NCBI GenBank assembly: GCA_947649615.1
Contig: CANSSG010000019.1
Coordinates: forward strand, 1 to 55,408
Direction of reading: 5' to 3'
Length of the DNA stretch: 55,408 bases
DNA from: an uncultured Clostridia bacterium
GTDB taxonomy: Bacteria > Bacillota > Clostridia > Oscillospirales > Oscillospiraceae
Shown: positions 631-48,195 of the stretch, one piece after another
Layout: every line of letters begins with the position of its first letter
Position numbering within the stretch: the stretch's first letter is position 1
Program-made: the position numbers and the translations under genes
Notes under the pieces: generated by a model
Told to the model about the DNA's origin: nothing
Databases searched by the model: none
The model's input: the letters and a program-made list of their open reading frames with translations, nothing else

Positions 631-3243
631 ATGGCTAAATTCAAACGCTCTAACTTCTTTCAGGATAATATACAGTCGATCCTTCCAGGAAGCGCAATAA
701 CTTTGGCTGTTTTCGCTGTGGTATGGTTCCTCTGGGGGCGGAACGCCGGGGAGAATGGCTCCCAGGCCCAGGAAACGGAGGGGGATGTTTACGTCTGTGG
801 CGGCTGCGGGAAGGAGTACATCAACCAATTCCCCTACACTTCTCCTTGGGTGGAATACCCCACTGAACTGCCCGCTCACGAGATCGTAGACATGGAGGAA
901 ACATCATACAATGACGCCATCGACGGAGCGACGCCGGTGGTCATGTTCCAGCGGGTAACTGGGAATCTGTCCAGCAGGGACGATAAGGATTTCTATAGAT
1001 TCACGATAGACGTGGCAGGCAGTGTGCGCTTCTACTTCTCCTTCGACGGTAGCAGCCATGGCTACACGTACCTATGGGATGGAACTGTCTATGGGATCGA
1101 TGGTACAACCGTGCTTAATTCCGGAGTTATCCCTATCAAGGAAGGCGAGGAGGTGACCTTTGGCACGGGCGAGTCCGACTTAGAGCCGGGTACATATTAC
1201 TTGATGATCTCAGTTGCCTCTGGCGGCAACCCATTTATGAACGGATATTCCGATACAGACTACCATATTACTTTCCGTCCCAAGTGTACAGAGCACACCT
1301 CTTTGACACAAACCCTGACAGCGGCGCCTACCTGCTTCCAGGCAGGTGAGTTAATAACGGTGTGTAATATGTGCGGCGAACAGATATCCGTGGAAGTTCT
1401 TGAATCTCTAGACCACATCTGGAGTATATGGAAGCTGGTGGAGGAGAGTTTCTTCAGCTCCATCTGGGGCAACTACAGCCGAGTATGTGCCCTCTGTGGG
1501 GAGGAGGAAATAGATACCTTGTTGCTTCACTTTCTGGACGGAGGTCCGAAGACAGACCCGGATGCTGTGACGGTGATCGAGACCAGGACGGAGCTCGGGA
1601 CTGCGTCTTGTGCGTCAGAGGTGGGCGTGAAAACTGTGTGTTCGGTATGCGGCAATGTGGAGGTGGAGAGTAAGGAGGCCACAGAACACACCTATGGCGA
1701 GTGGGTGACCAGCCACGTCTCCACCTGCTCGGTAGCGGGGCAGAGACGCCGTGTCTGTGCTGCCTGTGGTCATGTGGAGACGGAGACTCTTGAACAAGTC
1801 CCCCACACCTTTGGCAAATCGGTTCCAGTCAGTGGTAGCATCCTGAATGCCCCCATTGTGTCTCAGAAAACTTGCATGGAATGCGGATATGTGAGTACAG
1901 TGGAGATCGGTTGGTCCCGGTGGATCCTTCCAGCAATTGTTGTTTTGAGTATCGCGATATCGGTTGTAGTCCTGGCCCAGGTGCCACGGATAGTTCGCAG
2001 ATTGCACGGAAGGGCCGCTCAAAAGCAGCGGGAAAAGGCCTTCCTGTGCCCCTACTGCTTTAACACCGGTCAGATTGGTAAGGTGGAGTTCCGGTGCTCC
2101 AACAAACTTTGTAAAGATGTCCCAGATTTGCCAATGACAAAGTATGAAAACGGCGATTCTTCAATACCGCTCGTTGGTAAGTTCACATTCAAACCTACGG
2201 AAGCAGCGAGGGGGAAAAAGTTTATACCACGAGCAGCAACTTGTCCAGAATGCCACCAGACAACTCATAAAATAATTTGTCCGTCGTGTCATAATCTACT
2301 ACCCGAAAGTGTGCTGCTGGGCGAGGATATGATTATTTCAATAGTCGGATCACGAGATACTGGAAAGAGTCATTTTGTTGGCGTTATAGTTAATGAGTTG
2401 ATTGAGCGCATAGCTCCTGCATTTGGTGGGTCATTTGAAGGCTTTGATGACACCATGGAACGCTATGAGCAAAGCTTCGGAAGAAAACTCTACGTGGATC
2501 TTCAGAAGTTGGACTTGACACAGAGTTCTCTTCAAAATGTAAATAACGGCGCATATCGTCCCTTGATCTTTTCGCTGAAACTTCAGGTTAAAAAGGGATT
2601 GAAAGAGACCATTAACCGTTATACTTTAGTATTCTTTGATACCGCCGGTGAAGATCTTGAGGATGCGGATACTATGAGTACCGTCAACAAATATATCTGC
2701 AAGTCTGCGGGTATCATTTTCTTGCTTGATCCTATGAAGATTCCTGCAGTTGCAACTCAGCTTGATGAAGATGTTATTAAACGGGCTTCGTCTGTCAATT
2801 GGCAGCGTGCCAGGCGCTCGGATGACATTTTGGTTCGAGTGTCTAACCTAATCAGAAATGATAGGTCCTTGAAGAGTTCGGATAAGATTGATGTTCCTGT
2901 GGCAGTTGTGTTTTCTAAATTTGATGCCATTGAACCAATCATTCCTCAGGGGTGTGCCATTCTTACAAACAGCCCTCACTGTAAGGAAAAAGCATTTGTT
3001 CTCTCTGATTGGCACAATGTCAATTCTGAAGTCCAGGGCTTGCTTCGTACTTGGGGTGCAGAATCGTTCCTGTCTCAGCTCGAAGTAAACTACACAAACT
3101 ATTCTTGCTTTGCAGTTTCTTCCCTGGGCTTGAATAACAATCCGACAAGTGATATGAAAATTAATCGACCGAGACCGCATCGAATTGAAGACCCGTTGCT
3201 TTGGATTTTGATGAAGCTGAAGGTAATTAGATCAAAAAAATAA
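631..3243 (+). CDS. Membrane-spanning GTPase-like protein with extracellular PPC-like and CxxCG repeat region
   Basis: The 870-residue protein appears to cross the membrane twice. Residues 17-36 and 431-453 are hydrophobic segments. Between them lie a region resembling bacterial pre-peptidase C-terminal (PPC) beta-sandwiches (about 95-216, with DKDFYRF and LEPGTYYLMI) and six CxxCG knuckles (about 56, 245, 286, 337, 376, 415), some with HTYGEW-type linkers known from Firmicutes surface proteins. After the second membrane segment come two zinc-ribbon-like CxxC pairs (473/489 and 538/550). A nucleotide-binding domain follows with a P-loop GSRDTGKS (573-580), a DTAGED motif (670-675) and FSKFD (761-765) in the NKxD position. 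This layout resembles the GTPase-like domains named double-GTPase in conflict and signalling proteins. I infer that an outer sensor half controls an inner GTPase. The start has a strong GGAGG at good spacing. The substrate and role are unknown. A broken yccF and a toxin cassette follow on the same strand. Confidence 0.7.
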   Translation: MAKFKRSNFFQDNIQSILPGSAITLAVFAVVWFLWGRNAGENGSQAQETEGDVYVCGGCGKEYINQFPYTSPWVEYPTELPAHEIVDMEETSYNDAIDGATPVVMFQRVTGNLSSRDDKDFYRFTIDVAGSVRFYFSFDGSSHGYTYLWDGTVYGIDGTTVLNSGVIPIKEGEEVTFGTGESDLEPGTYYLMISVASGGNPFMNGYSDTDYHITFRPKCTEHTSLTQTLTAAPTCFQAGELITVCNMCGEQISVEVLESLDHIWSIWKLVEESFFSSIWGNYSRVCALCGEEEIDTLLLHFLDGGPKTDPDAVTVIETRTELGTASCASEVGVKTVCSVCGNVEVESKEATEHTYGEWVTSHVSTCSVAGQRRRVCAACGHVETETLEQVPHTFGKSVPVSGSILNAPIVSQKTCMECGYVSTVEIGWSRWILPAIVVLSIAISVVVLAQVPRIVRRLHGRAAQKQREKAFLCPYCFNTGQIGKVEFRCSNKLCKDVPDLPMTKYENGDSSIPLVGKFTFKPTEAARGKKFIPRAATCPECHQTTHKIICPSCHNLLPESVLLGEDMIISIVGSRDTGKSHFVGVIVNELIERIAPAFGGSFEGFDDTMERYEQSFGRKLYVDLQKLDLTQSSLQNVNNGAYRPLIFSLKLQVKKGLKETINRYTLVFFDTAGEDLEDADTMSTVNKYICKSAGIIFLLDPMKIPAVATQLDEDVIKRASSVNWQRARRSDDILVRVSNLIRNDRSLKSSDKIDVPVAVVFSKFDAIEPIIPQGCAILTNSPHCKEKAFVLSDWHNVNSEVQGLLRTWGAESFLSQLEVNYTNYSCFAVSSLGLNNNPTSDMKINRPRPHRIEDPLLWILMKLKVIRSKK

Positions 3244-3279
3244 GCCGATCACCATTCAAGCAAAAAGGAGATGATAGCA

Positions 3280-3503
3280 GTGAGAACCTTTGGGAATGTA
3301 ATGTGGTTTCTTTTTAAAGGAGCCTTACTTACTCTCTTGTGGTTCCTCGTTGCTCTTGCTTAGTTGGGAAATTGCAGTAACTTCTTTGATTGTTGTGCCT
3401 ATGTAGGTGTGTTACGATAATTGGAATTTCTTTTGGTATTCAAGGCATCAAGTTTGTACAACTTGCAAATACGCCCTTTGGAGCAGAAATTGTTGACTGT
3501 TAA
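3280..3503 (+). pseudogene. Broken yccF-like membrane protein gene
   Basis: A GTG start with a good AAGGAG site opens a 27-codon frame (MRTFGNVMWFLFKGALLTLL and so on) that stops at TAG 3361. Shifted by two bases, a second open stretch (about 3390-3503) reads through TIIGISFGIQGIKF and PFGAEIV to a stop. These two pieces match the start and the signature middle of YccF inner-membrane proteins (usually TIIGIPFG...FK.A...PFG.EI). The gene is therefore a short YccF domain broken by a frameshift plus a stop. YccF function is not well known. It sits directly behind the membrane GTPase gene and was probably in its operon. Confidence 0.75.
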
Positions 3504-3533
3504 CCCAGCACGTGATTGAAACGGAGGTGCGCT

Positions 3534-4466
3534 ATGAGCGAAATTTATGGCAGTGAAGTCAGCGGTTCCGAGGTTAGTTCCAGTTCTGGTGAGGTTAGAG
3601 ACGATAGCTCTACCAGATCTAGTGGTGAAGTAAATACTGGTGAGACAAGCGAAGTTGAAGACACCCCAGAAGTAACAGAAAATGAAGTCGACGATGATTT
3701 TTCCTCAGAATTGGACGACTTGTATTTAACGTACATGGAGGATGAAAAAATAAATGCTTTCGATAAAGAAGAATCCGATGAGGTTAGAGAAAGCGAAGAG
3801 ATGTCTGAATTAGACGAAACCGGAGAAGCAGATGAATCATTTGAACAGGAACTTGACGGCAAATACGCTGACTATCTTAATGGAGAACATACTTCGGAAG
3901 AACTCCAAGAAAACAGCAGAGGAATGGACGCAGTTGAGGATACAAAAGAAGACTCCGACGATATTAACTCTGAGCTAGACAAAAAATATAATGAATATAT
4001 TGATGAAGGAGGCAAACAAGGAGAACTGTCAGACACAGATAGAGCAGAGTTAAAAGAAGAAACCGGCTGGTCTGACGAAGTGGTAGATAGTATTGACACT
4101 TTTGAGCAGGCAGAAATATATAAAAACGCTGATCTTCATGAAGACAACATAAATGGCCGCGAGTGCCTTGTAAAAGAGATCGACTATGATTATGTAGACG
4201 AAAAAACAGGTATGACTAACCGTGAGCGCATGGCAAAAGGTCGTTCCCCGTATGACGCAAAAACGGGAGAGAAAATTGAGCTGCATCATATGGGACAAGA
4301 ATATGATGCTCCTTTTGCGGAACTTACAGAAAATAGTGAGCATGGCGATGGAAATCATTCGATACTACACCCTAGGACTGAGGATAGCTGGAGAAATGAT
4401 AAGACTTTAGAAGCACAGTACAGCAAAGAAAAACGTGAGCATTGGAAAACAAAAAGTAGGGAGTAA
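3534..4466 (+). CDS. Polymorphic toxin with acidic repeat N-terminus and C-terminal LHH (HNH/Endo VII) nuclease domain
   Basis: Predicted product of 310 residues. Residues 1-165 are very acidic and rich in Ser, Glu and Asp, with three copies of an ELDxxYxxY motif (from residues 59, 106 and 147). The last 140 residues match the LHH subfamily of HNH/Endo VII nuclease toxins: ETGWSDEVVD (about 175), TNRERM, the IELHH core (248-252), a GQ...PFAELT stretch, GNHSILHP and a terminal HW. Family knowledge says this domain cuts nucleic acid in target cells and is placed at the C-terminus of secreted toxins. No LXG, WXG, RHS, signal peptide or other known delivery module is visible, which is odd. ATG 3534 has GGAGG just upstream; a TTG six codons earlier lacks one. 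The next gene, 5 bases on, is the expected immunity gene. Confidence 0.8.
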   Translation: MSEIYGSEVSGSEVSSSSGEVRDDSSTRSSGEVNTGETSEVEDTPEVTENEVDDDFSSELDDLYLTYMEDEKINAFDKEESDEVRESEEMSELDETGEADESFEQELDGKYADYLNGEHTSEELQENSRGMDAVEDTKEDSDDINSELDKKYNEYIDEGGKQGELSDTDRAELKEETGWSDEVVDSIDTFEQAEIYKNADLHEDNINGRECLVKEIDYDYVDEKTGMTNRERMAKGRSPYDAKTGEKIELHHMGQEYDAPFAELTENSEHGDGNHSILHPRTEDSWRNDKTLEAQYSKEKREHWKTKSRE

Positions 4467-4471
4467 CAAAC

Positions 4472-4882
4472 ATGGATATTAATGAATTCATCTGTAAAAA
4501 TGATGTTGATTTTGCAACACATTTGATTAAGAAGGTAGACCTGAAGCGTGCAGAAGACGAACTGGAAATTAGATTTGGTCCCCAACTGTCTGAGTATTTG
4601 CTTGATTATGGGTACTTGGGCTTCGAGTCGATTGAATTCTATGGGATGAATTCCAGACAAGGTCTGAACTCTGACATGATTACACAGACTCGTTACCTGC
4701 ATAAATACTACACTGCAACCGTTCCTTATGTTGCTTTCGAGAACTATGGCGAGGGCGACTATATGCTTGTTGATTCAGAAGATAACGTTTTTGGCTTTAT
4801 ATCTGAGGAAAACAGGCTAGTAGAGACTGGCAAGAAGCTATTTGATCATATTCTAGCCAGATTTCAAGCAGAATTGAAGTAA
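4472..4882 (+). CDS. SUKH/SMI1-KNR4-like immunity protein
   Basis: A 136-residue cytoplasmic protein whose gene starts 5 bases after the LHH toxin gene. The pattern of an N-terminal helix pair with AEDELEIRFG, then EYLLDYGYLGFESIEFYG and later YMLVDSEDNVFGF, is typical of SUKH-superfamily (SMI1/KNR4, YobK-like) proteins. These are the commonest immunity proteins for nuclease-type polymorphic toxins. It is expected to bind and block the nuclease domain of the upstream gene. Assignment rests on the fold pattern and on position; the precise SUKH subgroup cannot be settled by eye. Confidence 0.75.
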   Translation: MDINEFICKNDVDFATHLIKKVDLKRAEDELEIRFGPQLSEYLLDYGYLGFESIEFYGMNSRQGLNSDMITQTRYLHKYYTATVPYVAFENYGEGDYMLVDSEDNVFGFISEENRLVETGKKLFDHILARFQAELK

Positions 4883-4960
4883 CAGATGAACTTCGGATTG
4901 TTGTGTGAGTGAGCAAGCTGGGCGTCTGTATATACAGATGCAGAAAATCGGGGATTTCTA

Positions 4961-4993
4961 AAACGAGAGACGCTGAAACAGCGTCTCTCGTTT
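4961..4993. terminator. Perfect 15-bp hairpin terminator
   Basis: AAACGAGAGACGCTG is followed by a 3-base loop and its exact reverse complement ending in TTT. It lies between the + strand toxin/immunity genes and the convergent minus-strand dehydrogenase gene, so it can serve both directions, since the stem ends in A on one side and T on the other. Confidence 0.85.
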
Positions 4994-5075
4994 CTGTGTG
5001 TCAAAAAAGATGCTTCCCATTTTTCGAGATATGAGCCTTTTTTGACGCTCTGCCTGCCTTATGTAGGCATGGGTA

Positions 5076-10077: not shown

Positions 10078-10365
10078 GATAAAACTCCTTCTGCCAATTT
10101 TTGCAAGTCTTGCTTCTAATAAAATAATACCACACTTTTTTTCGCCTGTAAATTGCAGGGAAGAAAATGGATGGCGGCATATCTGATTCTATTTGAAGTA
10201 TTTTTTTCTTGATATTTATTTCAATTATTTGCAACTATTTTAAAATTTATATACTATTTAATTATAATTCGATGATTGGATTAAAAAATGCTTTTGCTAA
10301 ATTGTATGCGTATCTGTATTTTTATCGGTCATAGAGAGAAATGTCAGCATTTTTGTACTTTGATT
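10078..10365. other. AT-rich intergenic region between divergent operons
   Basis: This part of the 478-base gap between the DUF885 gene and the transporter operon contains no gene. It holds the minus-strand promoter (10124-10152) and then about 200 bases very rich in A+T with many T and A runs (about 10190-10290), which may be curved. The plus-strand promoter and the tandem octamer element follow to its right. Confidence 0.6.
10124..10152 (-). promoter_or_regulatory. Promoter of the DUF885-lacI operon
   Basis: Minus-strand TTTACA, a 17-base spacer and TATTAT, 47 bases before the DUF885 ATG. No TTCTCATA pair is next to it, so this promoter may not be under the same control. Confidence 0.6.
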
Positions 10366-10383
10366 TTCTCATACATTCTCATA
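10366..10383 (+). promoter_or_regulatory. Tandem TTCTCATA element (copy 2), candidate operator
   Basis: Exact TTCTCATA octamers at 10366-10373 and 10376-10383, a 10-base period. They end one base before the TTGACA -35 box. A position upstream of -35 is more usual for activation than for simple repression. It is the partner of the pair at 7396-7414. Confidence 0.55.
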
Positions 10384-10384
10384 A

Positions 10385-10414
10385 TTGACAGCCGGTCATA
10401 TATAAGGATATAAT
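10385..10414 (+). promoter_or_regulatory. Consensus sigma-A promoter of the peptide-transporter operon
   Basis: TTGACA (10385-10390), an 18-base spacer and TATAAT (10409-10414). Both hexamers match consensus exactly. The predicted leader is about 135 bases before the binding-protein ATG. Confidence 0.8.
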
Positions 10415-10555
10415 CATTAAAAATACATTTGCAGTGGATTTTATACAGACAGCCGGATACCAGGACGGTAAGACGGATGTCTCAACCAAAGGCTTGCCTT
10501 TGATGAGAATACAAGTCGGCAGCAGTTTTTGAAAATCCAAAAAGGAGAGAAAGGT

Positions 10556-12235
10556 ATGAAAAAGAAAGTATTTGCATTGCTTCTGGCGTTGATGCTCGCC
10601 GTCTGTACTGCTTGCGGAACAGACAACAATCCATCCAGCGGCAGCCCCTCTGACGGCGATGGCAGCGGCGCCAATGTTTCCGAACCTAACACACCGTCTC
10701 CGGCGGGAGACGAGACCCCCAGAAAAGGTGGGGATATCGTTGTAGGCCTTTCCTATGAGCCGGATACCATGAACGTGTACTCCACGCACCTGCTGGGCGA
10801 TGTTCAGGCGATGATGGTGGAAGGTTTATTGGTGCCTAACAGTGAAATGGAATATGTTCCTGTTTTAGCGAAAGAGGTTCCTACAGTGGAAAATGGCGGT
10901 ATTGTCATGGATGAAGCCGCCGGTACGATGGATATTACCTATCACCTGCGGGACGACGTCCAATGGCACTGCGGCGAGAAGTTTACCGCCGCCGATGTGG
11001 TGGCCACCTGGGAAGCCCTCTGCAATCCTGACTGGGAGGCGGAATCCAAGGACGGCGCGTCTGACATTGATTCCATTGATGTCATTAACGACTATACCGT
11101 GGTCTGCCACTATAATGTCATTTCTCCCGACTATGCACAGACCCTTTTTACCTTCGGGATTATGCCCGCACATGATATTGTAGGCAAGGATATGAATGAT
11201 CCGAACAACGGCTACAATAACGCGCCCTGCGGAACTGGGCCGTTCGTCTTTTCGGAATGGGTTTCCGGAGAATATATCAAGCTGACCCGCAATGACAACT
11301 ATTATGGGGACAATGGTCCGTACCTGGATTCCGTTACCGTCCGGTTTGTTACCGATGAAAATACCCGCATCAATATGCTGAAGTCTGGTGAGATCGATTT
11401 CACTTACGGCATCAGCTTTGCTAACTACGACCAGGTTAAGGACCTTGCTGGCTGCACCGCTATCGTACACGGGCTTAACTCTTGGCGCTACTTTGACATG
11501 AACCACAACGTTCCGGGCCTGGACGATGTGAATGTCCGCCGCGCGATTGCCTGCGCTATTGACAAGGACGCTCTGGTCAACCAACTCTTTTCCGGCATTC
11601 CGCAGGCTTGGGACCAGCCCTGGATGCCCAGCGACCCCTTCCATGTGGAAGGCTTTACATCCGAGTGGAGTTTCGACATGGACAAAGCTAATCAGTTGTT
11701 AGACGATGCAGGCTGGGTGAAGGGTTCCGACGGTGTGCGCGCCAAGGATGGGATTCGTCTGGACTTTACCGTTATTTGCCGTTCCGGCACTGCCACAGAC
11801 GGGTTTATCGCGCAGGTTATTACGTCCTATCTCAGTCAGATCGGCATTAAACTCAGCACAGAGGAATACGCCTCCTCTACCTGGAGCGCCAAGATGTATG
11901 ACGGCGACTATCAGCTCGGCATTGGCGGATACATTACCAGCCCCGGCGCGACCCGGAGCAAGATGTACGCGATTGGCGGCGCGTTGAACCGCGGTGGGTG
12001 GGAAAACCAGGCGTTTACCGATCTGTGCGAGAAGATTGACAAAGAACTGGACGCCGAAGCCCGTAAGGCGCAGGTGGCTGAAGCACTGACCTATTTTGAC
12101 AGTGAACTGCCGCAGATTGTCATTTATGCCACTAATGAAATTCTTGTGGTCAATGAAAAGTTGCGGGGCTTTGAGCCAAATCCCACTAACATGACGAACT
12201 TCTGCCAGTCTGCCGGCTGGTGGCTGGCTGAATAA
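10556..12235 (+). CDS. Peptide ABC transporter substrate-binding lipoprotein (family 5)
   Basis: A 559-residue extracellular solute-binding protein of the OppA/DppA family. It has a lipoprotein signal: MKKK, a hydrophobic core, and the lipobox VCTAC with Cys20. A Ser/Gly/Asp-rich linker follows. The mature part shows family features such as GGDIVVGLSYEPDTMN, DDVQWHCGEKFTAADVV and YGDNGPYLDSVTVRF. ATG 10556 follows AAAAGGAGAGAAAGGT. It is the first gene of the operon that also encodes both permeases and both ATPases. A hairpin after the gene probably lets this protein be made in excess over the rest. Related proteins bind di- or oligopeptides, opines, nickel or glycosides, and the exact ligand is unknown. 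Confidence 0.92.
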   Translation: MKKKVFALLLALMLAVCTACGTDNNPSSGSPSDGDGSGANVSEPNTPSPAGDETPRKGGDIVVGLSYEPDTMNVYSTHLLGDVQAMMVEGLLVPNSEMEYVPVLAKEVPTVENGGIVMDEAAGTMDITYHLRDDVQWHCGEKFTAADVVATWEALCNPDWEAESKDGASDIDSIDVINDYTVVCHYNVISPDYAQTLFTFGIMPAHDIVGKDMNDPNNGYNNAPCGTGPFVFSEWVSGEYIKLTRNDNYYGDNGPYLDSVTVRFVTDENTRINMLKSGEIDFTYGISFANYDQVKDLAGCTAIVHGLNSWRYFDMNHNVPGLDDVNVRRAIACAIDKDALVNQLFSGIPQAWDQPWMPSDPFHVEGFTSEWSFDMDKANQLLDDAGWVKGSDGVRAKDGIRLDFTVICRSGTATDGFIAQVITSYLSQIGIKLSTEEYASSTWSAKMYDGDYQLGIGGYITSPGATRSKMYAIGGALNRGGWENQAFTDLCEKIDKELDAEARKAQVAEALTYFDSELPQIVIYATNEILVVNEKLRGFEPNPTNMTNFCQSAGWWLAE

Positions 12236-45967: not shown

Positions 45968-47149
45968 ATGCTCAAGCATCTGGTAAACCTGCTGAAGGGG
46001 GAGGTAACGGGACGTGTGGAGAGCGGTTTTCCGGAGCGCGTCCTCAACCTCTGCGCGGAATACGGCGTATCCTTCTGGAACCTGAACTGGGAATCTCCCG
46101 TGGCATTTACCTTCACCATGACCCGCCAGGACTGGAAGCGCCTGCGGCGGCTGAGCAAGCGCATTGACTGCGATATGACTGCCGTGGGATGGAAAGGGAC
46201 GCCGTTTTTTTTAGGCCGGGTCCGTTACCGCTACGGGCTGTGGGTCACTTTTGCGGTCTGTGCGTTGGCCTTGTTTTGCAGCTCCTTTTTCGTATGGGAT
46301 ATTGAAATTGAAGGAAACGAGACCATTTCCCGGCAGGAAATCCTTCGTGCTTTGGAGAAGTACGGGGTTGGCTTTGGCACGTATGGTTTTTCGGTGGATT
46401 CATCGGAGCTTCGCAACTATATGCTGCTGGAGATTCCCAGCCTGAGCTATATTGCGGTAAATGTAAAGGGCTGCCGGGCCTATGTGCAAGTCCGGGAGCG
46501 CGTCCCCGCGCCGGAAATCATTGATAAAAAGAAGCCTGGCAACACGATTTCCAAAAAGGATGCGCTGGTTACCGCCGTCCAGCCCTGGGACGGGGAAAAG
46601 CAAGTCCTGCCGGGGACTACGGTGAAGGAGGGGCAGCTTCTCATATCCGGCGTAGTGCAGAATAATTACAGCGGCGTACGTTATTTGCGGGGGATGGGGA
46701 AGATTTATGGGCGGACATGGTACCAGTTGGAGTGCAAAGTATCCCTGGCGGCGCAGAGGAAGGTATACACGGGGGAGGAGAAGACGAGACGGGCGCTTCT
46801 GATTGGAAAAAAACGGGTAAATCTCTATTTTAGCAGTAGCATTTTAGGGGATACTTGTGATAAAATAGTAAACTGGGATAAGTGGGAGCTTCCAGGGGGC
46901 GTGGCGCTGCCGGTTACGATGGTAACGGAGCGGCTGCGTTATTACACGGTAGAGGAGGCGCCCCGCCGGAAGGAAGAAGCGTTGGCTTTAGCGAAGGAGA
47001 CATTGGAGGAGCGGTTAGCGGGGTATGTTACGGAGGGTGAGATAATAAGTCAGGAAATCACCAGCAAAAAAGAGGGAGATATATTAGTGGTGACATTGTC
47101 GGCGGAATGCGAGGAGCAGATTGGCAGATTTGTAGACGCCCCGGATTGA
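45968..47149 (+). CDS. yqfD: Sporulation protein YqfD
   Basis: A 393-residue membrane-bound protein. A cytosolic N-terminal part (about 1-90) precedes a membrane segment (about 90-112, YGLWVTFAVCALALFCSSFFVW). The outside domain starts IEIEGNETISRQEILRAL, a POTRA-like sequence. These features match YqfD, known from spore-formers and partnered with YqfC. The exact task is poorly known; a role at the forespore envelope is likely. Confidence 0.93.
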   Translation: MLKHLVNLLKGEVTGRVESGFPERVLNLCAEYGVSFWNLNWESPVAFTFTMTRQDWKRLRRLSKRIDCDMTAVGWKGTPFFLGRVRYRYGLWVTFAVCALALFCSSFFVWDIEIEGNETISRQEILRALEKYGVGFGTYGFSVDSSELRNYMLLEIPSLSYIAVNVKGCRAYVQVRERVPAPEIIDKKKPGNTISKKDALVTAVQPWDGEKQVLPGTTVKEGQLLISGVVQNNYSGVRYLRGMGKIYGRTWYQLECKVSLAAQRKVYTGEEKTRRALLIGKKRVNLYFSSSILGDTCDKIVNWDKWELPGGVALPVTMVTERLRYYTVEEAPRRKEEALALAKETLEERLAGYVTEGEIISQEITSKKEGDILVVTLSAECEEQIGRFVDAPD

Positions 47150-47217
47150 GCTGCGCCGGCAGGCCGCGTCAGAAACCATACACCCCGCGCCAGAACGGCG
47201 CGAAAAGGAGCATTGCA

Positions 47218-48195
47218 ATGGAACAAAGGATAGAAATTGAAAGACTAGAAGAAGCTGCCAGCATTTTTGGCTCGTTTGACGAGAATATCCGGCTGATTGA
47301 AGCCGAATTCCATGTGGTTGTCACCAACCGGGAGGGGGAATTGCGGATCGCCGGGGAGCCGGAGGACACGATGCTGGCGTCCAAGGCCATCGGCGCTTTG
47401 CTGACCCTCTCCAGCAAGGGCGAAGCCATCGGAGAGCAGACCGTCCGCTATGTAATCGGGCTGGCCCGCAGCGGACAGGCAGACAAGGCCGCCGAACTGA
47501 CGGCGGACGTGATCTGCATTACCTCCAAGGGCAGGCCGGTGAAAGCGAAAACTATTGGCCAGAAGCGCTATATGGAATCGGTAATGAAAAATACCGTCAC
47601 CATCGGCGTAGGCCCCGCCGGTACAGGCAAGACCTACCTGGCGGTGGCCGCCGCCGTGGCGGCCTTCCGGGACAAGCAGGTCAACCGCATCATCCTGACC
47701 CGCCCCGCCGTGGAAGCGGGGGAGCGGCTGGGGTTTTTGCCTGGGGACTTGCAGTCCAAGGTGGACCCGTACCTGCGGCCGCTGTACGACGCCCTGTTCG
47801 ACATGCTGGGGGCGGAGACGTACCAGAAATACCTGGAACGGGGCAATATCGAGGTGGCCCCCCTGGCTTACATGCGGGGCCGGACGCTGGACGACAGCTT
47901 TATCATTCTGGATGAGGCACAGAATACCAGCCGGGAGCAGATGAAAATGTTTTTGACCCGCATGGGGTTCGGCTCCAAGGTGGTCATTACCGGCGACGTG
48001 ACCCAGATCGACCTGCCCGCCGACAAGACCTCCGGGCTGAAGGAAGCCGTCCGGGTGCTGAAAAACGTGGAGGGCATCGGGATTTGCGAGCTGACCGACC
48101 AGGACGTGGTGCGCCATGTGATGGTACAGCGGATCATCAAGGCGTACGACGACTACTACAACTATAACAACAATACCAAGGGGAAGAAGAGATAA
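47218..48195 (+). CDS. PhoH-family ATPase/helicase-like protein
   Basis: A 325-residue protein. The N-terminal part has a KH-like region, then the PhoH ATPase core: TVTIGVGPAGTGKTYLAVAAAVAA (Walker A), LTRPAVEAGERLGFLPGDLQSKVDPYLRPLYDAL and SFIILDEAQNTSREQMKMFLTRMG (Walker B). Conserved PhoH neighbours of ybeY are thought to act in RNA metabolism. GGAGCATTGCA fixes ATG 47218. Confidence 0.95.
   Translation: MEQRIEIERLEEAASIFGSFDENIRLIEAEFHVVVTNREGELRIAGEPEDTMLASKAIGALLTLSSKGEAIGEQTVRYVIGLARSGQADKAAELTADVICITSKGRPVKAKTIGQKRYMESVMKNTVTIGVGPAGTGKTYLAVAAAVAAFRDKQVNRIILTRPAVEAGERLGFLPGDLQSKVDPYLRPLYDALFDMLGAETYQKYLERGNIEVAPLAYMRGRTLDDSFIILDEAQNTSREQMKMFLTRMGFGSKVVITGDVTQIDLPADKTSGLKEAVRVLKNVEGIGICELTDQDVVRHVMVQRIIKAYDDYYNYNNNTKGKKR

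Follow-up and report, generated by a model that had tools for sequence, protein, structure and literature searches.

An open reading frame of an uncultured Clostridia bacterium (Oscillospiraceae) encodes a protein which, at about an even chance in our judgment, works as a sensor: a two-pass membrane protein joining a surface module to a DO-GTPase switch. The ORF lies at positions 631..3243 on the + strand of contig CANSSG010000019.1, which was analyzed over 55,408 nucleotides, here called the window. It is a single open frame of 870 amino acids that begins with ATG, has a Shine-Dalgarno-like stretch (GGGAGG) directly 5′ of the start, and encodes, in this order, a transmembrane (TM) segment, an ectodomain, a second TM segment, zinc ribbons, and a DO-GTPase. 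An original prediction made from the sequence had listed two hydrophobic segments, a PPC-like domain, six CxxCG motifs, zinc ribbons, and P-loop, DTAGED and SKFD motifs, and all of these are present in the ORF. The features of the gene given below are all on the + strand.

A Kyte-Doolittle scan (19-residue window, threshold 1.6) detected exactly two TM-like segments in the protein, TM1 at residues 16 to 34 (676..732) and TM2 at residues 431 to 449 (1921..1977), the latter followed by a basic linker. Lysines and arginines together number three in residues 1 to 16 and seven in residues 450 to 475, with one in each outer flank. This distribution fits an N-in, loop-out, C-in arrangement. Hydropathy and charges thus predict a protein with its N terminus inside, its ectodomain outside and its GTPase half inside, in agreement with the outside and inside halves originally proposed, and nothing in them places the P-loop half outside the cell.

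The predicted cytosolic half, residues 468 to 870 (2032..3240), is homologous to free-standing DO-GTPases, with 62 to 63% identity. It starts with two zinc ribbons recognized by their cysteine pattern (2047..2289), C473/C476/C489/C494 and C538/C541/C550/C553. The CxxC pairs are CPYC at 473, CPEC at 538 and CPSC at 550, as the earlier zinc-ribbon call had implied; C489 and C494 were assigned by eye from the translation. N-terminal zinc ribbons are a trait of DO-GTPases, 60% of which carry one or two of them according to the freely readable text of Kaur et al. 2020 (PMC7159879). The ribbons are followed by the P-loop GSRDTGKS at residue 573 (2347..2370), by DTAGED at residue 670 (2638..2655), identified by motif search and alignment as a Walker B/G3 motif with the DO-GTPase glutamate, and by a G4-like SKFD at residue 762 (2914..2925). 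In an alignment of 16 sequences, the first G and the GK of the P-loop, the G and E of DTAGED, and the K and D of SKFD are invariant; the residues common to all rows, in the numbering of the half, are C6, C9, C83, G106, G111, K112, D203, G206, E207, K296, D298 and five more.

The Pfam profile DO-GTPase2 (PF19993) matches the protein with an E value of 3.4e-4 and 20.8 bits, and the gene with 24.1 bits in a six-frame search, both below the cut-off of 27 bits. Two related GTPases encoded beside GAP1 (L032 and L031) also score below it, at 18.1 and 18.6 bits, and another relative, L072, passes it with 30.8 bits and matches the window half at an E value of 4.6e-76. When an AF2 model from the alignment of the GTPase half (pLDDT 81.5, pTM 0.85) was submitted to Foldseek, the matches were EF1A, YcjX, Arl13B, Ras and MglA (E values of 1.5e-5 to 2.7e-4), with low TM-scores by query length for those listed (0.23 to 0.34). 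This predicted fold, together with the P-loop and the K-x-D of G4, points to a TRAFAC GTPase. Against viral models, the best-ranked matches were in the main giant-virus GTPases of the Ras-like and translation types, which tell no more than the fold does. The second-ranked fold match, YcjX (PDB 6nz4; 12% identity, TM-score by query 0.29), is what we take to be a TRAFAC-type, stress-linked GTPase, presumably without zinc ribbons or an ectodomain, unlike the window protein. The predicted fold, the motifs and the related proteins identify the inside half as a DO-GTPase, even though its Pfam score does not reach the cut-off. The original prediction had assigned it to the double-GTPases and suggested an HMM search and a structure prediction as checks; the kin, motifs and fold matches bear out the assignment, and both checks returned GTPases, the HMM match being under its cut-off.

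L032 and L031, the two relatives found in the genome-contig collection, match residues 468 to 870 only, with 63 and 62% identity, and are proteins of 405 residues. In a third relative, from a genome of the same family, 242 of 393 residues are identical to the window half. All three are free-standing, and GAP1 is a close downstream gene in each. Their sources are Ruminococcus flavefaciens and the same-family genome, both with HSP70/FN3/GAP1 operons, and a Clostridiales MAG, in which the gene lies beside FN3 and GAP1 genes. The R. flavefaciens operon encodes an HSP70-vWA protein, YidD, a zinc-ribbon/FN3 protein, two DO-GTPases, a GAP1 that scores above the cut-offs of both PF20013 and PF20014, and a putative ATPase labeled HerA-like from its sequence only; the operon of the same-family genome is laid out similarly and encodes three DO-GTPases. 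In a tree of 23 sequences, built before the same-family relative was fetched, the window GTPase groups with those of L032 and L031 (support 99/97).

These operon layouts match the GAP1-N2 systems of Kaur et al., whose freely readable text describes DO-GTPases in GAP1-type conflict systems, places such systems near the membrane and proposes a GTP switch for them (PMC7159879). As far as that text goes, the DO-GTPases of GAP1-N2 systems resemble the window half in having two N-terminal zinc ribbons, a P-loop, the Walker B glutamate and K-x-D; the window protein differs by its N-terminal TM-PPC-CxxCG-TM fusion and by the lack of a detected GAP1 in its genome. The accessible part of a PSP survey also mentions a DO-GTPase near pspFABC (PMC11237479). 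Of the three DO-GTPases in the GAP1 operon at L156 (1529-17492), two have an N-terminal TM segment, and a GAP1 operon at L076 contains a DO-GTPase (10312-11428) split over two overlapping frames.

The ectodomain between TM1 and TM2 comprises about 395 residues and contains six CxxCG motifs. The first, at residues 56 to 60 (796..810), precedes a PPC-like beta-sandwich at residues 85 to 215 (883..1275), and the other five, at residues 245, 286, 337, 376 and 415, form a repeat region (1279..1905). A phmmer search with the protein matched collagenase chains (5iku, E value of 0.0013) in the PPC-like stretch; the PPC profile of Pfam did not appear among the matches of the 870-residue protein at E values up to 1, and the NCBIfam FDP_fam match was under cut-off (17.5 of 29 bits). 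Modeling was limited to the PPC part because the whole-ectodomain alignment misplaced the PPC rows. With the AF2 model of residues 80 to 220 (pLDDT 74.7, six-row alignment), the collagen-binding/PPC domains of collagenases ranked first in Foldseek, with 1nqj at E values of 3.8e-7 and 2.1e-6 and TM-scores by query of 0.59 and 0.57. The PPC-like call made earlier is thus upheld by a fold match, with weak support at the sequence level. Residues within 85 to 215 also align with L080 and with the PPC repeats of L081, an SLH surface protein with a Pfam PPC match (E value of 4.8e-13).

With a full-length query, 94 of 300 genomes of the family had matches, and among the matches listed nearly all covered CxxCG repeats only, indicating that it is the repeat that is common in the family, not the whole protein. 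In the CxxCG-repeat proteins L083 and L085, Pfam detects LRR and SLH domains, with an additional transglutaminase-like match under cut-off in L083. L014, without a Pfam match, is a protein of 368 residues in which two TM segments enclose CxxCG repeats and a short basic tail follows. L081, L083, L085 and L014 share with the window protein a PPC domain or CxxCG repeats after an N-terminal hydrophobic segment, but all four lack a P-loop. L014 has the same TM-CxxCG-TM order, differing in that it ends in its short basic tail, and possibly pictures the ectodomain before fusion. The outer half is built from modules that are commonplace in the surface proteins of this bacterial family.

We surveyed 158 sequence sources with a profile (E ≤ 1e-10), obtaining 107 ORF rows and, after removal of near-copies, 42 distinct DO-GTPase ORFs including that of the window; two of these are pieces of one broken gene, and no fewer than three others are truncated or short. 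TM-like segments precede the P-loop in 10 of the 42, and 32 have none. The earlier description of such GTPases as mostly soluble is right only in part: TM-anchored DO-GTPases, some with extracellular domains, were already described in the freely readable text of Kaur et al. (PMC7159879). The nine TM-bearing ORFs other than the window's (L067, L074 twice, L075, L076, L135, L138, L156 twice) carry no large ectodomain. Eight have hydrophobic stretches between residues 48 and 112 only, and the ninth, L075 (17895-19535), has segments at 8 to 26 and 132 to 150, with about 105 partly hydrophobic residues in between. A large ectodomain between two widely spaced TM segments occurs in the window ORF alone (1 of 42), and the order TM-PPC-CxxCG-TM-zinc ribbons-GTPase in none of the others, so that the unusual order claimed by the original prediction holds within this survey.

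The fusion was found nowhere else in the genome-contig, viral, phage, plasmid or whole-genome searches and thus stands as one example. The viral-contig collection gave one pattern match and no relative, phages gave no match, and plasmids gave only two Rhodococcus records, distant and limited to the GTPase part. In whole-genome searches (E ≤ 0.001, own genome counted, overlapping draws), matches occurred in 2 of 25 genomes of the genus, 10 of 400 of the family (two weak), 7 of 394 of the order, 14 of 391 of the class (about five weak and partial) and 30 of 398 of the phylum (19 weak and partial). PADLOC returned a chance-level match only (E value of 0.036). We found no report of this order in the text of the freely readable papers searched.

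The 631-3243 product is therefore a variant of the TM-anchored DO-GTPases already reported, and the ectodomain between its two TM segments is unusual. As described in the freely readable text of Kaur et al. (PMC7159879), the extracellular domains of their DO-GTPases sit after a C-terminal TM segment; the TM-containing DO-GTPases reported there and the nine found here share with the window protein a placement at the membrane by N-terminal TM segments. Such placement is open to another reading, in which TM segments and ectodomain fix the GTPase at the membrane or wall and a partner runs the switch from inside. The nine TM-bearing ORFs that make do without a large ectodomain speak for this reading, as does the generic nature of PPC and CxxCG modules as surface parts; about 395 residues seem to us large for a bare anchor, and we regard it as rather improbable.

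No GAP1 was found encoded with the window GTPase, on a contig that starts 630 bp upstream of the gene. The profile PF20013 (GAP1-N2) had no match at E values up to 1 in the host genome, which is 95.8% complete, so that a GAP1 could lie in the roughly 4% that is missing. The same search was positive in six of nine genomes, the negatives being the host genome, G768 and G829; in G829 a GAP1 was seen by phmmer, and PF20014 (GAP1-M) gave 23.2 bits, just under its cut-off. The PF20014 search was weak (over cut-off in four of the nine genomes) and returned from the host genome a single 14.1-bit stretch containing a stop. The host genome gave no second match to the protein and no DO-GTPase2 match above cut-off, that of the window gene (24.1 bits) included; the four other places are short stretches of the P-loop end with 13 to 18 bits. 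Among six downstream neighbors put to Pfam, none was an FNIII, tubulin, HSP70 or kinase gene. GAP1-less DO-GTPases do occur elsewhere, as shown by G768, a genome in one contig with no GAP1-N2 or GAP1-M match, where a lone DO-GTPase (L072, 8902-10080) lies among housekeeping genes, next to an rlmL-like gene (Pfam) and putative serine dehydratase genes. We consider it probable that gene fusion moved the window GTPase out of a GAP1 operon and that it now acts independently of GAP1. That a conflict switch once internal and dependent on GAP1 was thereby rewired into a transmembrane receptor-GTPase acting autonomously, with direct reading of the surface and signaling without GAP1, is a tentative proposal that we hold to be on the unlikely side.

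The GC content at third codon positions (GC3) falls from 0.63 to 0.40 at codon 491 (2101..2101; support interval, codons 487 to 497), a change whose likelihood gain of 22.1 was reached by 0 of 2000 permutations. Among 13 other window ORFs taken for genes, 11 had p > 0.05, one 0.037 and one 0/300. The last, at 47107-48195, shows a sharp GC3 change at codon 71, and its start is perhaps annotated too early. The low-GC stretch of the window (2101-5000, about 0.38 to 0.45 between DNA of 0.5 to 0.6) looks acquired. It spans a YccF gene broken into two frames (3280-3500; the halves match positions 1 to 23 and 29 to 51 of the 51-position model, with E values of 0.0034 and 0.0064, both under cut-off), an LHH nuclease toxin gene (PF14411, E value of 2.4e-21) and a SUKH_5 immunity gene (E value of 7.1e-11), the latter two at 3516-4882 on the same strand as the GTPase gene. 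A weak transglutaminase-like remnant that ends at a stop lies on the other side of the gene (127-318, E value of 0.011). As the YccF gene and the transglutaminase-like piece are degraded, the locus may be decaying.

The break suggests a recombinational mosaic. The protein could even be a leftover of recombination, a low-GC foreign GTPase-YccF-LHH-SUKH segment lodged in a surface-protein gene of the host, with little or no expression and decaying, a reading favored by the sharp break, the low GC up to about 5.0 kb, one broken gene on each side and the absence of a detected GAP1. An intact 870-codon frame and the conserved motifs speak against it, and we give it a low probability. Moreover, GTPase homology begins at residue 468, so that 24 GC-rich codons upstream of the break belong to it (11 and 12 of these 24 residues are identical in L032 and L031); the GTPase may have been fused earlier, or the break may not be the fusion point. 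Homology that crosses the break is not accounted for by a simple chimera joined at the fusion point; it might be by a recombination event within the first zinc ribbon. The same homology argues against an assembly chimera of two genes, as do the continuous frame, the complete N terminus of the GTPase and TM2 with its basic inner flank just before it; the composition break, the occurrence in one genome only and an assembly in 70 contigs are in its favor, and we think it very unlikely. A 31-base piece from the junction, searched against the viral-contig collection, matched nothing.

The LHH and SUKH_5 genes look like a polymorphic toxin pair from their profile matches, and their location downstream on the same strand raises the idea that the protein helps to deliver or sense the nuclease. 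They are, however, separated from it by a 272-bp gap with the broken YccF gene, and phmmer searches with toxin and immunity proteins matched no ORF of at least 100 aa in L031, L032, L064 to L079, L156 and L157 (L132 to L138 lay outside this search). A role in a toxin system therefore seems to us the most improbable of all.

A sensor joining surface module and GTPase switch draws on the domain order and motifs, on kin of 62 to 63% identity in GAP1 operons and the grouping in the tree, on the AF2 model with its GTPase fold matches, on relatives of the PPC and CxxCG parts in SLH or LRR proteins, on the lack of a GAP1-N2 match in the host genome, and on the membrane-near setting and GTP switch put forward by Kaur et al. 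Against it stand the single example, the absence of a visible partner or output, the incomplete host genome, the degraded flanking genes, the GC3 break, the Pfam score under cut-off and the low TM-scores. In the mechanism that we infer, from topology and GTP binding to dimer, ligand and output, TM1 would lead out from an internal N terminus, PPC domain and CxxCG repeats would lie outside in the wall zone, and TM2 would lead back to two zinc ribbons just under the membrane, ahead of the TRAFAC-class GTPase. The ectodomain would bind a wall polymer or protein; clustering or a shift transmitted via TM2 would change GTPase dimerization or nucleotide state, and the GTP form would recruit a partner.

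To our knowledge, the input sensed by DO-GTPase/GAP1 systems has been proposed, not demonstrated. A natural fusion that sets a surface module and the GTPase in one chain makes the state of the surface a plausible input for them and provides a single-gene object in which input and GTPase output would be measurable together. In this single case, one protein may thus carry a signal across the membrane, by combining a surface module with a GTPase that usually lies within the cell and belongs to a predicted defense system.
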